Origin: Bacteroidota bacterium
GTDB taxonomy: Bacteria; Bacteroidota; Ignavibacteria; Ignavibacteriales; Melioribacteraceae
Direction: 5' to 3'
Length of the DNA stretch: 64,000 bases
Assembly: GCA_018829205.1 (NCBI GenBank)
Contig: JAHJUE010000015.1
Span: forward strand, 1 to 64,000
Made by a program: the position numbers and the translations under genes. The stretch's first letter is position 1. Every line of letters starts with the position of its first letter. The notes beneath the pieces were generated by a model that worked only from the letters and a program-made list of their open reading frames with translations, ran no database searches and had not been told where the DNA came from. Positions 3,441 to 11,184 of the stretch are shown here, piece by piece.

Positions 3441-3638
3441 GCGCAGGCGGGGAACTATACCCACTTGTGCACAAAATAACTATAAACGAAAACTAAAACA
3501 AACGACATATTTCACACAGTGGTGTTTTACGGCTCCAGCGGAGCCGAACATTAGTAGAAAAATAAAAAAAGAAATAATCCCAAAGCTCCGTAGGAGCGAA
3601 ACAAACATCCCCGCGAAGTCGAGCCTGCCCGCCGTAGC
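3441..3638 (+). repeat. 198-bp direct repeat, copy 1 (partner 4097-4294)
   Basis: The block starting GCGCAGGCGGGGAAC and ending CCCGCCGTAGC is repeated at 4097-4294 with a constant offset of 656 bp and about a dozen substitutions by eye, without indels. It includes the GGCTCCAGCGGAGCC and GCTCCGTAGGAGC hairpins. The high identity indicates a recent duplication or gene conversion. Confidence 0.85.
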
Positions 3639-3856
3639 GAAGGAAGGAAGAGAATCCATCGCGAAGGCGGGCCTGCCCGCCGTAGCCCTCCTTCACTTCG
3701 TTTCGGAGGGTAAACTTCAGCGAAGGAGGACCTGCCCGCCGTAGCGAAGTAGGAACAGAATCCATCGCGAAGGCGGGCATGCTTCAGTGTAGGAAGATGA
3801 CAATCAATTTTGCAATCTTGCAATCATCCAATCATTCAATCATGAAATCTTGTAAT

Positions 3857-4051
3857 CATGAAATCCAACGTCCTGACCTCCGTAACTTCAGTGAAGGAGG
3901 TACCCTCCGGCTTTTTAAATTCATTTCCAAATTCAAAAAATAAATGTGCCGCTCCTACCGGAGCTATTATGAAAAAATCTATATTTATCTACTAACATGC
4001 CGCACCTCCGGTGCTATTAAGGCTCCAGCAGAACCGAACAACTTCCCCGCG
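3857..4051 (+). repeat. 195-bp direct repeat, copy 1 (partner 5800-5993)
   Basis: Positions 3857-4051 and 5800-5993 match over about 195 bp with roughly four differences including one single-base deletion. The block runs from CATGAAATCCAACG through the CTCCTACCGGAG and CCTCCGG hairpins to CTTCCCCGCG. The intact hicBA genes and the vapBC remnant lie between the two copies. Confidence 0.85.
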
Positions 4052-4096
4052 CAGGCGGGCCTGCCCGCCGTAGCGAAGAATGGAACAGAATCAATC

Positions 4097-4294
4097 GCGC
4101 AGGCGGGGAACCATACCTACCTGTGTACAAAATAACTATAAACGGAAAGTAAAATAAACGGCATATTTCATACAGTGGTGTTTTACGGCTCCAGCGGAGC
4201 CGAACATTAGTAGAAAAATAAAAAAAGAAATAATCCCAAAGCTCCGTAGGAGCGAAACAAAATTCCCCGCGAAGTCGAGCCTGCCCGCCGTAGC
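4097..4294 (+). repeat. 198-bp direct repeat, copy 2 (partner 3441-3638)
   Basis: Second copy of the block described at 3441-3638, collinear over its full length. It leads into CCCTCCTTCACTTCG and the octamer tract from about 4361. Confidence 0.85.
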
Positions 4295-5610: not shown

Positions 5611-6455
5611 AGATGTAAATCGAATACTCTTTAGTATTTTACCTATCAATGATATAAAGTTATGAAATCTCCCCCAAAAACAGACAAAAATAAAAGCTGT
5701 TAATTTATAGTCTATCTAGTAATAGGATAATCAATTTTGCAATCAACAAATCATCCAATCTTCCAATCATTCAATCTTGTAATCTTGTAATCTTGCAATC
5801 ATGAAATCCAACGTCCTGACCTCCGTAACTTCAGTGAAGGAGGTAGCCTCCAGCTTTTTAATTCATTTCCAAATTCAAAAAATAAATGTGCCGCTCCTAC
5901 CGGAGCTATTATGAAAAAATCTATATTTATCTACTAACATGCCGCACCTCCGGTGCTATTACGGCTCCAGCAGAACCGAACAACTTCCCCGCGAAGGTGA
6001 GCCTGCCCGCCGTAGCCCTCCTTCACTTCGTTTCGGAGGGTAAACATCAGCGAAGGAGGGCCTGCCCGCCGTAGCGAAGTAGGAACAGAATCCATCGCGA
6101 AGGCGGGCCTGCCCGCCGTAGCCCTCCTTCACTTCGTTTCTGAGGGTAAACTTCAGCGAAGGCGGGCATGCTTCAGTATAGGAAGATGACAATCAATTTT
6201 GCAATCTTGTAATCTTGCAATCATCCAATCATCCAATCATTCAATCATGAAATCTTGTAATCTTGTAATCTTGTAATCTTAAAATGTGTTAAAATAGGAG
6301 GCAAACTATTTCTCTTGTATGAAACCCTAAATTCTTCTTAAGTTTGCTATGTAAATTTATTTAACAATTAAAGTCGTTATTCAAAATTCAGACTACTGTC
6401 TACTGATTACTTACTACTGAATTCTGAATTCTGACTACTGACTACTGGAGAAAAA
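5611..6455. repeat. Composite repeat array (module copy D) with octamer and heptamer tracts
   Basis: About 845 bp without a credible gene: an octamer tract at 5729-5808; the second copy of the 195-bp block at 5800-5993; two rounds of the GC-rich CCTGCCCGCCGTAGC...GCGAAGGCGGGC unit at about 5990-6170; an octamer tract at 6189-6280; and, directly before the next gene, a 7-bp periodic tract (CTACTGA/ATTCTGA words, about 6384-6447) that runs to within 10 bp of its start codon. Confidence 0.8.
5800..5993 (+). repeat. 195-bp direct repeat, copy 2 (partner 3857-4051)
   Basis: Second copy of the near-identical block described at 3857-4051; it carries one single-base deletion and about three substitutions. 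Confidence 0.85.
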
Positions 6456-8621: not shown

Positions 8622-8810
8622 TTGTAGAAGGCAGAATACAGAATACAGAATACAGAAGTCAGAATACAGAAGTTAGAATTCAGAAATCTAACTACTATCT
8701 TCTAAATGCCTTTTTATAAGATTAGAAATTTTTAGCAATAAAAATATAAGATTCATTTAAGCTACTGACTACTGACTACTGAATTCTGCATTCTGACTTC
8801 TGACTACTAA
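8622..8810. repeat. Two inverted heptamer tracts between tRNA-Leu and tRNA-Val
   Basis: About 8632-8686 is a 7-bp periodic tract of CAGAATA-type words. About 8757-8808 is the reverse-complement family (CTACTGA, ATTCTGA words). They are separated by about 70 bp of AT-rich DNA and could pair into a long stem between the tRNA genes. Confidence 0.75.
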
Positions 8811-8814
8811 AAAA

Positions 8815-8888
8815 GGGTTCTTAGCTCAGTTGGTTAGAGCGTCTGCTTGACGTGCAGAAGGTCATAGGTTCGAATCCTATAGAACCCA
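8815..8888 (+). tRNA. tRNA-Val (GAC anticodon)
   Basis: A 74-nt cloverleaf: acceptor GGGTTCT with AGAACCC plus A, canonical D-arm TAGCTCAGTTGGTTAGAGC, anticodon stem TCTGC/GCAGA with loop TTGACGT (GAC at 8849-8851), and T-arm ATAGG/CCTAT with loop TTCGAAT. CCA is not encoded. It is followed by three 74-nt derivatives. Confidence 0.95.
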
Positions 8889-8925
8889 CAAGTGAAAAGA
8901 GCTTAGATATTTGATTGAAATAGGT

Positions 8926-8999
8926 TGGTTCTAGAACGATTAGTACTAGAGCGCCCCGCCGAGGCGGGGAGGTCATCCCGCGAAGCGGGATAGAACCCA
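8926..8999 (+). pseudogene. tRNA-Val-like pseudo-tRNA 1 with palindrome-replaced stems
   Basis: It is 74 nt, the same length as tRNA-Val, and aligns without gaps in the 3' half: AGGTCAT at positions 44-51 and ATAGAACCCA at 65-74. The acceptor keeps GGTTCT/AGAACC. The anticodon arm has become CCCCGCCGAGGCGGGG, a near-perfect hairpin with no 7-nt anticodon loop. The T-stem has changed from ATAGG/CCTAT to ATCCC/GGGAT with loop GCGAAGC. The D-arm pairing is lost. It cannot be a functional tRNA, but the stems remain paired. Confidence 0.75.
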
Positions 9000-9036
9000 C
9001 AAGTGAAAAGAGCTTAGATATTTGATTGAAATAGGT

Positions 9037-9110
9037 TGGTTCTAGAACGATTAGTACTAGAGCGCCCCGCCGAGGCGGGGAGGTCATCCCGCGAAGCGGG
9101 ATAGAACCCA
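9037..9110 (+). pseudogene. tRNA-Val-like pseudo-tRNA 2 (identical to copy 1)
   Basis: The second tandem copy of the tRNA-shaped 74-mer, with the same replaced anticodon and T stems. Identity with copy 1 implies recent duplication or homogenisation. Confidence 0.75.
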
Positions 9111-9135
9111 CAACAAAAGTAGAAATTTGAAAAAA

Positions 9136-9209
9136 GAGTTCTATAAAACTGGCTGATTAAGCGTCCTGATAACTTAGGAAGGTCATCCCGCGAAGCGGAA
9201 TAGGACCTA
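9136..9209 (+). pseudogene. tRNA-like pseudo-tRNA 3 (diverged)
   Basis: Again exactly 74 nt, with a weaker acceptor (GAGTTCT/AGGACCT). The anticodon arm TCCTGATAACTTAGGA gives six pairs and a 4-nt loop, and the same AGGTCATCCCGCGAAGCGG T-arm sequence sits at the same internal position. It is an older member of the series. Confidence 0.65.
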
Positions 9210-9216
9210 CAACAAT

Positions 9217-9239
9217 CGGAGCCGGCTCCGTTTTTTTTT
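9217..9239 (+). terminator. Intrinsic terminator of the tRNA-Val transcript
   Basis: The palindrome CGGAGCCGGCTCCG (9217-9230) is followed by nine T residues, a strong intrinsic terminator 14 nt before the thrS start. The pseudo-tRNAs are therefore probably transcribed with tRNA-Val. Confidence 0.8.
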
Positions 9240-9252
9240 ATAAGTAAAGATC

Positions 9253-11184
9253 ATGAATAAAATAAATATTACATTACCAGACGGATCAGTAAAAGAATTT
9301 GATAGCGGTATTACTCCTTATCAAGTCGCTGAATCAATTTCAGGCAGATTAGCATCCGATGCAATTGTCGCTAAAGTGGATGATAAATTGTGGGATCTGC
9401 ATAGATCTATTAATAACGACTCGAAATTATCTATTCATACCTTTAATGATCCTATCGGACAGGAAACATACTGGCATTCTACTTCCCATTTAATGGCTCA
9501 CGCTGTTCAGGAATTATACCCCGAAGCTAAATTCGGTGTCGGCCCCGCCGTTGAAGGGGGATTCTATTATGATATAGATATTAATTCCCAGCTTACCGAG
9601 GATGATCTTGGTAAAATTGAAAAGAAAATGTCGGATATCGCTTCCAAAAATAATCCTTTTAAAAGAACAGAGCTTTCAAAAGATGAAGCCGTAAAATTCT
9701 TTGATAAAAAAGGAGATAATTATAAACTTGAGCTTTTAGACGCGATGGACGAAAACGGTCAGGTCATTAGTATATACGACGAAGGTGAATTTACCGACCT
9801 TTGCCGCGGACCTCATGTACCAAGCGCGGGCGCAATAAAATATTTTAAACTCTTAAGCGTTTCCGGATCTTATTGGAGAGGGGACGAAAAGAATAAACAA
9901 TTACAGAGAATTTACGGCGTTTCTTTCCCTAAAAAGAAAATGCTCGAAGATCATCTTTTTATGCTCGAAGAAGCTAAAAAAAGAGATCATAGAAAATTAG
10001 GAAAACAGCTTAACCTTTTCAGCGTTCATGAAGAAGCCGGACCCGGTTTAATTTACTGGCATCCCAAAGGAGCGCGCGTTCGTAATGAAATCGAAAATTT
10101 CTGGAGAGACGCTCATTATAAAAACGGGTATGAATTATTGTATTCGCCCCACGTAGGTAAAGGATGGCTTTGGGAAACCAGCGGTCATCTCGAAAATTAC
10201 GGCGAAAATATGTACGCCCCTATGAAGGTTGATGATAACGATTATTATATTAAACCGATGAACTGCCCGTTTCATATTATGATGTATAAATCGGCGCTTC
10301 ATTCATACCGCGATCTTCCTTTAAGATGGGCGGAACTGGGTACCGTTTATAGATACGAAAAAAGCGGGGTGCTTCACGGACTTCTGCGCGTACGCGGATT
10401 TACTCAGGACGACGCGCATATATTCTGCGCGCAGGAACAAATCGAGGATGAAATAGTTGAGGTTATCCGCTTCAGTTTGTTTATGTGGAAATCATTCGGT
10501 TTTGAGGATCTTAAATTTTATGTGGCAACCCGACCCGAAAAAGCGGTAGGCGAAAATGAAACATGGGATAAAGCTACCAAGTCCCTTATTAATGCGCTTG
10601 ATAAGGAAGGTCTTAAATACGAACTTGACGAAGGTGGCGGAGCATTCTACGGTCCCAAAATAGATATTAAAATTAAAGACGCTCTTCACCGCGAATGGCA
10701 GATGAGCACTATTCAATTCGATTTTAATCTGCCCGAACGTTTCGATATGACCTATATCGGCGAAGACGGCAAGGAACACCGTCCTTTTATGGTGCATAGA
10801 GCCCTGCTCGGTTCCATTGAAAGATTTATGGGCGTGCTGATCGAACATTTCGGCGGAGCTTTCCCTACATGGCTTGCACCTGTTCAGGCTGCCGTTGTTC
10901 CGGTTTCACAAAATTACCTGGTATATGCGGAAGAAGTTGGAAATTTCCTGAAAAAGAACAATATTAGGGTTGAAGTTGACAGACGTAATGAAAAATTAGG
11001 TTATAAAATCAGAGATTGGGAAACTAATAAAGTCCCGTTTATGCTTATTGTAGGAGAAAAAGAAAAAGAATCTAATTCTGTTTCTATCAGACAGCATAAG
11101 TCGGGCGACATCGGAACCAAATCTTTATCCGAATTTTCGGATATGGTTTTTGATGAAATTATCAATAAAACTATTCACAACTAA
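9253..11184 (+). CDS. thrS: Threonyl-tRNA synthetase
   Basis: A 643-residue, full-length class II enzyme that charges tRNA-Thr. Domains in order: N-terminal TGS domain (1-62); editing/SAD domain with HLMAH (79-83) and the later TDLCRGPH; catalytic core with MNCPFH (zinc ligand Cys), motif 2 around YRYEKSGVLHGLLRVRGF and motif 3 around GSIERFMGVLIEHFGG; and the C-terminal anticodon-binding domain (about 545-640). It heads the conserved thrS-infC-rpmI-rplT-pheST block; infC begins 12 nt after its stop. The start follows the tRNA terminator closely, and no clear Shine-Dalgarno sequence is visible. Confidence 0.98.
   Translation: MNKINITLPDGSVKEFDSGITPYQVAESISGRLASDAIVAKVDDKLWDLHRSINNDSKLSIHTFNDPIGQETYWHSTSHLMAHAVQELYPEAKFGVGPAVEGGFYYDIDINSQLTEDDLGKIEKKMSDIASKNNPFKRTELSKDEAVKFFDKKGDNYKLELLDAMDENGQVISIYDEGEFTDLCRGPHVPSAGAIKYFKLLSVSGSYWRGDEKNKQLQRIYGVSFPKKKMLEDHLFMLEEAKKRDHRKLGKQLNLFSVHEEAGPGLIYWHPKGARVRNEIENFWRDAHYKNGYELLYSPHVGKGWLWETSGHLENYGENMYAPMKVDDNDYYIKPMNCPFHIMMYKSALHSYRDLPLRWAELGTVYRYEKSGVLHGLLRVRGFTQDDAHIFCAQEQIEDEIVEVIRFSLFMWKSFGFEDLKFYVATRPEKAVGENETWDKATKSLINALDKEGLKYELDEGGGAFYGPKIDIKIKDALHREWQMSTIQFDFNLPERFDMTYIGEDGKEHRPFMVHRALLGSIERFMGVLIEHFGGAFPTWLAPVQAAVVPVSQNYLVYAEEVGNFLKKNNIRVEVDRRNEKLGYKIRDWETNKVPFMLIVGEKEKESNSVSIRQHKSGDIGTKSLSEFSDMVFDEIINKTIHN

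Follow-up and report, generated by a model that had tools for sequence, protein, structure and literature searches.

The closest described systems are the free-standing GIY-YIG homing endonucleases of T-even phages, such as SegB, whose genes adjoin tRNA genes; in the excerpts of two reports on which we draw, these enzymes cut within tRNA sequences and are associated with tandem amplification of the tRNA together with the nuclease gene (PMC13096335, PMC2988022). For SegB of phage T6, the excerpted text gives the cleavage motif as RAWTSGAAC, places cleavage peaks within tRNA genes, and reports that SegB causes the tRNA and segB to be amplified together in tandem, apparently via microhomology (PMC13096335). 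On our own reading, the other strand of this motif, GTTCSAWTY, would be a tRNA T-loop motif. Phage and ICE integrases also leave their mark at tRNA genes: according to the part of the source available here, integration commonly leaves partial tRNA copies, so that one complete and one partial copy are found (PMC9897764). Finally, REP palindromes, which include the GTAG/RAYT-linked and the CGTC superfamilies, are short and GC-rich; members of the CGTC superfamily have been reported in Bacteroidetes and Chlorobi and, in the portion of that paper used here, "apparently lack a dedicated transposase" (PMC3733652; Di Nocera et al., 2013). The available portion of another source (PMC1564403) makes no mention of a tRNA-gene context.

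The window, that is, the whole 64,000-nt stretch that was analyzed, carries a tRNA-Val(GAC) gene between tRNA-Leu(TAA) and thrS, and behind it an array of tRNA-Val-derived sequences:

8815..8888, plus strand: intact tRNA-Val(GAC), the parent gene (ARAGORN; Rfam tRNA model, 75.2 bits; the 3' end is 8888 or 8889)
8879..8989, plus strand: first 111-bp repeat unit, 100% identical to the second
8990..9100, plus strand: second 111-bp repeat unit, 100% identical to the first
8926..8999, plus strand: converted tRNA-Val copy 1 (sequence; RNA fold)
9037..9110, plus strand: converted tRNA-Val copy 2, the same as copy 1 (repeat identity; RNA fold)
9136..9209, plus strand: copy 3 of tRNA-Val, converted and decayed (a 39-nt member of the repeat family, at 90%)
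8954..8969, plus strand: palindrome CCCCGCCGAGGCGGGG, replacing the anticodon arm of copy 1
9065..9080, plus strand: palindrome CCCCGCCGAGGCGGGG, replacing the anticodon arm of copy 2
8975..8991, plus strand: palindrome ATCCCGCGAAGCGGGAT, replacing the T arm of copy 1, 17 nt for 17 nt
9086..9102, plus strand: palindrome ATCCCGCGAAGCGGGAT, replacing the T arm of copy 2
9185..9201, plus strand: palindrome in the T arm of copy 3, degenerate, with 1 mismatch
9217..9239, plus strand: terminator-like hairpin CGGAGCCGGCTCCG followed by a T-run (sequence; palindrome list)
9253..11184, plus strand: thrS, the next gene, outside the element (ORF; own sequence and tblastn matches)

A sequence-only reading of this region had described a pair of identical 111-bp units and then a third, diverged one behind tRNA-Val, each holding a 74-nt tRNA-Val-like segment, and this layout is confirmed: the first unit opens with the final 10 nt of tRNA-Val, the second repeats it without a difference, and the third copy follows at a spacing of 99 bp. 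In copies 1 and 2, the 17-nt anticodon arm has become a perfect 16-nt palindrome and the 17-nt T arm a perfect 17-nt palindrome, both GC-rich; AGGTC of the variable loop and the 3'-terminal AGAACCCA are retained, and relative to tRNA-Val the D arm is 1 nt longer and the anticodon arm 1 nt shorter. The earlier statement that the stems have been overwritten by palindromes is therefore right for the anticodon and T arms of copies 1 and 2 and too broad for copy 3, where an AT-richer hairpin forms the anticodon arm and only a degenerate palindrome is left in the T arm. Nor are the units "tRNA-shaped", as had been proposed: neither ARAGORN nor the Rfam tRNA model at gathering score calls a tRNA on them (both call only tRNA-Met, -Leu and -Val in the window), and the best RNA fold of copy 1, and hence of the identical copy 2, consists of three hairpins (-37.6 kcal/mol, z -5.6) and is no cloverleaf, which leads us to reject a cloverleaf function; copy 3 folds with -20.2 kcal/mol (z -1.6). 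The terminator that had been placed after the third copy is matched by the terminator-like hairpin and T-run before thrS. The units contain no GIY-YIG ORF, and the sole ORF of at least 90 aa across them is a minus-strand repeat frame.

Where could these palindromes come from? Within the window, the 14-nt core of CCCCGCCGAGGCGGGG (at most 2 mismatches) has 5 matches compared to 0.12 in shuffles, and ATCCCGCGAAGCGGGAT (at most 3 mismatches) has 5 compared to 0.21, with strands counted double in both cases. The resemblance to palindromes of the genome's repeat arrays that had been suggested is loose: an array palindrome at 4046-4059 does differ from the anticodon-arm core at just 2 positions, but in the genome as a whole the complete 16-mer (at most 2 mismatches) occurs only in the units and at one 2-mismatch place, C15:192741, so that dispersal of the REP type is not seen, and the 15-mer core of the T-arm palindrome (at most 1 mismatch) occurs at five places only, namely the three units, tRNA-Gly(CCC) and RNase P RNA (rnpB), the last two with 1 mismatch each. 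An origin of the units' palindromes in the genome's own arrays is rejected, since the only link is a core match with 2 mismatches. Unlike REPs, moreover, the palindromes sit at tRNA-arm boundaries inside tRNA copies and lack a tag of their own; GTAG is absent beside those of the units, which are flanked by tRNA sequence. Other repeats are present nearby: palindromes GGCGGGCCTGCCCGCC and CGGCTCCAGCGGAGCCG, unlike those in the units, belong to repeat arrays at 3530-4202 and 6102-6117 of the window, AT-rich tandem and inverted repeats of the CAGAATACAGAAGT type occupy 8626-8811, between tRNA-Leu and tRNA-Val, and dispersed palindromes of the GTCATTCCCGC..GCGGGAAT type are found in the genome.

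The exact 111-bp unit is confined to this array, which holds both of its matches in the 4.59-Mb, 39-contig draft; the further copies that had been envisaged exist in another form, as the same phenomenon beside further tRNA genes, both here and in other genomes. When 42 tRNA genes of the genome were compared with their own flanks by blastn and the loci were read, adjacent partial copies were found at ten: Val, Asp (three copies, in tandem), Pro-TGG (two copies), Pro-CGG, Thr-GGT, Ser-TGA (found by reading the locus, not by blastn), Arg-ACG, Arg-CCG, Met and Leu-CAA. Copies at eight of the ten contain a perfect palindrome with a stem of at least 6 bp in the D, anticodon or T arm, the converted anticodon arms being TCCCGACTTGTCGGGA (Asp), TCCCGCCTTAAGCGGGA (Pro-TGG), TCCCGCCTTGGCGGGA (Thr) and TCCCGATTGCCATCGGGA (Arg-ACG); the Met copy has one imperfect and one 5-bp palindrome, and the Leu-CAA copy has a T-loop insert with short complementary ends. 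At Lys-CTT, only the 3' end and the terminator are repeated.

Among relatives, the region matches 54 of 57 (own genome excluded), over the tRNA; G020 has a weaker match only, to tRNA-Val(TAC). thrS is present at the same locus in 28 of the 29 fetched loci, yet most relatives read show only a short tRNA-Val/thrS spacer, often with a terminator-like hairpin, and a conserved thrS leader element is thus rejected; a hairpin resembling CGGAGCCGGCTCCG lies behind tRNA-Val in relatives that lack the units (L013, L015, L022, L027 and L035). Converted copies flank tRNA-Val in four relatives (G030, G010, G046 and G008), with two copies upstream, one downstream and palindromes in several arms in G046.

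A set of 155 loci (three duplicates, L018, L025 and L032, left out) with 213 tRNA genes yields 109 unique partial copies, 76 of them with a new GC-rich hairpin. Dropping the rows from L207-L236, which had been found by their palindrome pattern, leaves 73 of the 109; of these, 46 contain a GC-rich hairpin (3 of the 46 are chance pairings, and tandem copies, counted singly, are not independent) and 27 have none by the filter used. The controls are far lower: a hairpin is found on average in 4.7% of shuffled copies (12% in the highest of 20 rounds) and in 3 of 35 intact parent genes. For the "far" sequence, the hairpin density of 1.38 per kb was compared with the 0.20 per kb of the own genome, not with each genome's own. 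By hand assignment, 49 of 52 hairpins lie inside an arm (D, 12; anticodon, 20; anticodon/variable, 2; T, 15), and in the other three, all from L280, chance has paired the sequence with the acceptor strand; of the 20 anticodon-arm hairpins, 19 begin with the first nucleotide of the stem, and in 14 the exchange matches the arm exactly. The palindromes, which replace an arm or interrupt it, often have the form YCCCG..CGGGR. The copies lie on the strand of the adjoining parent gene, often in tandem; a native T loop is retained in 12 of the 73 and a native anticodon arm in six, with both in none, a figure that is partly circular because a copy with both would be called as a tRNA and masked. We conclude with high confidence that tRNA copies with palindrome-replaced arms are real and recurrent, and as a description the earlier proposal that palindromes replace existing hairpins is strongly supported. 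At five loci (G140 Arg, G375 Ala, G284 Ala, L260 Ser and L291 Lys), a 5' part upstream and a 3' part downstream of the intact gene carry palindromes with similar stems, as if an element carrying its own intact tRNA had split the host tRNA.

The phenomenon is not limited to close relatives. When 395 genomes of the phylum are scanned with a pattern for converted anticodon arms, TAGARCRYCCCGN{3,10}CGGGRAGRT, it matches 41 times, in 16 of them (7 times in the own genome, which is included), and never when reversed, and 28 of 30 fetched pattern loci contain an intact tRNA. In a scan of 84,980 species, run without the reversed control, 80 of 117 matching stretches are listed and hold 100 matches: 77 of these have a same-strand tRNA within 1 kb, one has a tRNA on the opposite strand, and 22 have none, several of the latter resembling chance matches in coding sequence; a GIY-YIG-like ORF lies within 800 bp of 18, by a simple motif test that may undercount. 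The tRNA-linked loci listed are recorded, many as MAGs and with the taxon names given in the records, as Ignavibacteria, Flavobacterium, Nitrospirae, Chloroflexi, Verrucomicrobia, Lentisphaerae, Kiritimatiellia, Acidobacteria, Neomarinimicrobiota, Dojkabacteria and Gracilibacteria. From the converted copies, past events at tRNA genes can be read in many bacterial groups, to go by record titles. As far as we have searched, tRNA copies with palindrome arms are an undescribed feature: the open-access literature, to which the search was limited (subscription journals and preprints being outside its scope), yielded no description of partial tRNA copies with palindrome-exchanged arms. The tyrT distal repeats of E. 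coli are tandem repeats that include a tRNA 3' end, and rRNA intervening sequences are hairpins placed in RNA helices; to our knowledge, neither involves exchange of an arm for a palindrome or a GIY-YIG gene.

What links these loci to SegB? In 13 genomes, the PF01541 profile detects small ORFs beside converted tRNA copies, a link that the sequence-only reading had no means of seeing. In the own genome, a GIY-YIG gene (119570-119773; its protein has 82 aa) lies between the copy and the intact gene of Arg-CCG, its TAG stop codon being inside the intact tRNA, another between the Leu-CAA gene and its copy, and a decayed one behind the Met copy; there is none at the window array nor at seven of the ten copy-bearing tRNAs. 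Two layouts recur: (i) intact tRNA, terminator, GIY-YIG ORF and a 3' part with a palindrome (L257, L258 and L266; also L246, with no intact gene nearby), the TAG stop codon being continuous with AGCG of the tRNA in all four; and (ii) a 5' part with a palindrome, GIY-YIG ORF and intact tRNA (tRNA-Pro of G035 and Arg-CCG of the own genome). In a first set of 79 rows with short open frames, 75 of which fall within fetched loci, 48 of the 75 placed genes have a tRNA within 1 kb, in every case on the same strand. Enlarged by 48 further rows to 123 small GIY-YIG genes (G425, the same genome as G284, is left out, and 15 more rows with frames below 300 aa are not included), the set has 73 genes within 1 kb of a tRNA, 72 of them on its strand, and 50 beyond 1 kb of any called tRNA; the tRNA-near genes occur in 25 of 30 genomes, nearly all of which were chosen for carrying converted copies and so are not a random sample. 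On a tree of 105 sequences, tRNA linkage needs 12 changes, as compared to a mean of 34 and a minimum of 28 in 200 shuffles, and the residues Y, YxG, R, H and E are kept in at least 102 of 104-105 GIY-YIG sequences. The only solved relatives found for the own tRNA-linked protein belong to UPF0213, likewise small GIY-YIG proteins (1zg2, E 1.2e-6; 1ywl, 1.2e-5), and its phage relatives comprise 17 records, all below 60% identity. The architecture and the association of GIY-YIG genes with tRNA genes are thus shown.

Some of these loci are more elaborate. Tandem arrays of three GIY-YIG genes beside tRNA-Ser (L279, G035:C1:1384667-1385513) and of five beside tRNA-Leu (L252, L265 and L270, G046:C1:120132-122135) have palindrome-bearing tRNA fragments between the genes. 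In the own genome, contigs C21 (end of L157) and C6 (start of L268) share about 70 identical end bases; if joined there, a GIY-YIG gene would be right behind tRNA-Lys(TTT).

The window units may be ORF-less members of a tRNA-nested, SegB-like family of GIY-YIG elements, in which displaced copies are overwritten by palindromes; we judge this reading to be no less probable than all others together. The assignment is drawn from the architecture that the array has in common with the nuclease-bearing loci, the units themselves having no such ORF. A member of the family would consist of an intact tRNA gene with at least one partial copy before or behind it, and the fuller form would add a gene for a GIY-YIG endonuclease of about 80-120 aa, often between the intact and the partial copy. 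For cleavage, mobility and the origin of the palindromes, we infer the following course. The nuclease, whose gene is seen next to the tRNA, would cut the tRNA gene like phage SegB; repair and microhomology recombination would then give rise to partial copies and tandem repeats; a palindrome that overwrites an arm would remove both the cut site and the homology to the intact gene, and the converted copy could be neither recut nor used for deleting the element. In the tRNA-Val array, the nuclease gene would have been lost or never present. Several copies end, or acquire their palindrome, right after the T-loop GTTC, but the 12 copies with a native T loop speak against a simple T-loop rule. The family would differ from phage SegB in residing on bacterial chromosomes, in the size of its proteins, in having partial tRNA copies with palindrome arms, and in its nuclease-less arrays. 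Several observations weigh against it, among them the 27 of 73 copies without such a hairpin, the 50 of 123 small GIY-YIG genes beyond 1 kb of a called tRNA, and the GIY-YIG-like ORF near only 18 of the 100 matches listed. A GIY-YIG gene with its catalytic residues, although present at related loci, is absent from the window's own units, as it is from most copy-bearing tRNAs of the genome, and in alphaproteobacteria, a more nearly random set, only one of 23 small GIY-YIG loci has a tRNA within 1 kb (L481, at 501 bp), the 23 including L474 (249 aa) and L501 (245 aa, UvrC-like). The converted copies point to an undescribed family of bacterial elements related in kind to phage SegB.

A wider reading, tentative and distinctly less probable, is that small GIY-YIG nucleases form a broad class of palindrome-handling mobile-element enzymes, with tRNA-nested and CGTC-REP branches, of which the window units would be an ORF-less, MITE-like form. 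The tRNA branch would nest at tRNA genes, replacing the broken tRNA while palindromes overwrite the arms of displaced copies; in the other branch, inverted REP palindromes of the CGTC type would flank the gene, and its product would be the enzyme that this superfamily is missing. Of 14 small genes assigned by motif to another GIY-YIG branch, none lies within 1 kb of a called tRNA in the genomes covered, and ten are flanked by hairpins, though not every one of these is CGTC-tagged. In alphaproteobacteria, CGTC-type palindromes occur within 300 bp of 4 of the 23 GIY-YIG loci with frames below 300 aa, a test that was prompted by genes of G423 (Roseibium), whose L434 is among both the 23 and the four; three of the four (L434, L476 and L486) have inverted pairs around the ORF. 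None of seven larger alphaproteobacterial GIY-YIG frames has such a palindrome within 300 bp, and farther away from the 23 small frames, 51.7 kb of sequence contains three, two of them at L434. With a modest share and a small test, the link between CGTC palindromes and GIY-YIG genes is a lead; it makes small GIY-YIG nucleases a concrete candidate for the missing enzyme of these palindromes. CGTC/GTCAT-tagged palindromes flank small GIY-YIG genes at L434, L447 and L469 (Roseibium, G423), L431 (Roseivirga), L476, L483, L486 and L267 (own genome, C20:39215), and at several of these loci the palindromes form an inverted pair with the ORF between them, an arrangement that resembles a REPtron whose RAYT has been exchanged for a GIY-YIG nuclease.

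Could the palindromes act on their own? Palindromic repeats might invade any tolerant hairpin, by template switching during replication or through a single-strand transposase (RAYT), with spare tRNA copies being merely the place where invasion survives and the GIY-YIG link being secondary; we regard this as unlikely, though it is the most serious rival to a SegB-like family. The genome has 43 CCCGC..GCGGG palindromes compared to 3 for the reversed pattern, and by our tally ten of the 43 lie in tRNA-derived sequence and two in rnpB. The two rnpB hairpins (L108 360-812, own genome C22:117159-117611), of the form TCCCGC..GCGGGA, may be native, and one of them sits in sequence inserted relative to the Rfam consensus. 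A palindromic T arm, TCCCGCAAAGCGGGA, is also found in tRNA-Gly(CCC) (L006 1492-1564, own genome C15:209433-209505), which is not a neighbour copy; ARAGORN misses this gene, Rfam scores it at 46.5 bits, and there is no second Gly-CCC among the 41 ARAGORN-called genes in blocks of the own genome. Three Y1_Tnp genes are present, one of which (PF01797, E 8e-7; L144 1093-1668, contig C3) contains an in-frame palindrome, TCCCGCCATGGCGGGA, at 168836. However, the units' own palindromes are not dispersed, all but one of the 73 tRNA-near GIY-YIG genes share the strand of the tRNA, and G003, G005 and G006 have TCCCGC..GCGGGA palindromes although G003-G006 yield no Y1_Tnp match. RAYT as the sole agent is rejected: the three Y1_Tnp genes exist, but the units' palindromes have no GTAG.

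Even less probable is a role as functional RNA, in which the copies would be transcribed together with the tRNA and maintained as stable hairpins for processing, decoy or regulation. Such a role would fit the shared strand (77 of the 78 matches listed that have a tRNA within 1 kb), the strong folding of copies 1 and 2, and arrays in which loops vary and stems stay paired (G140, G035 and G043), but copies differ between genera at the same locus, are not found at most tRNA-Val loci inspected, and in many cases are truncated 5' or 3' parts. Still less credible is an origin as scars left by integrases whose att sites lie in anticodon or T arms: the partial copies such events leave look similar, but here the intact gene and the copy are only tens to hundreds of bp apart, far closer than in integrase fragments; the 111-bp unit, which sets the spacing, is too small for an integrase, and none lies between the tRNA copies; and att crossover would not be expected to yield new perfect palindromes. 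The palindromic arms and the tandem arrays are further differences from integrase fragments. That a SINE-like dispersed repeat is forming, an earlier suggestion prompted by its tRNA derivation and the terminator nearby, is hardly tenable for a 111-mer with no dispersed copy and copies that adjoin their parent, and an assembly artefact, conceivable for two identical units in a 39-contig draft, is next to impossible given equivalent tandem arrays in the single-contig assemblies G035 and G046 and the many copies that differ from one another within arrays.

Converted copies may also confuse tRNA annotation: in G328 (L247), a GIY-YIG gene lies between two tRNA-Phe calls, one of which has a palindromic D arm, TCCGCCGCAGGCGGA.
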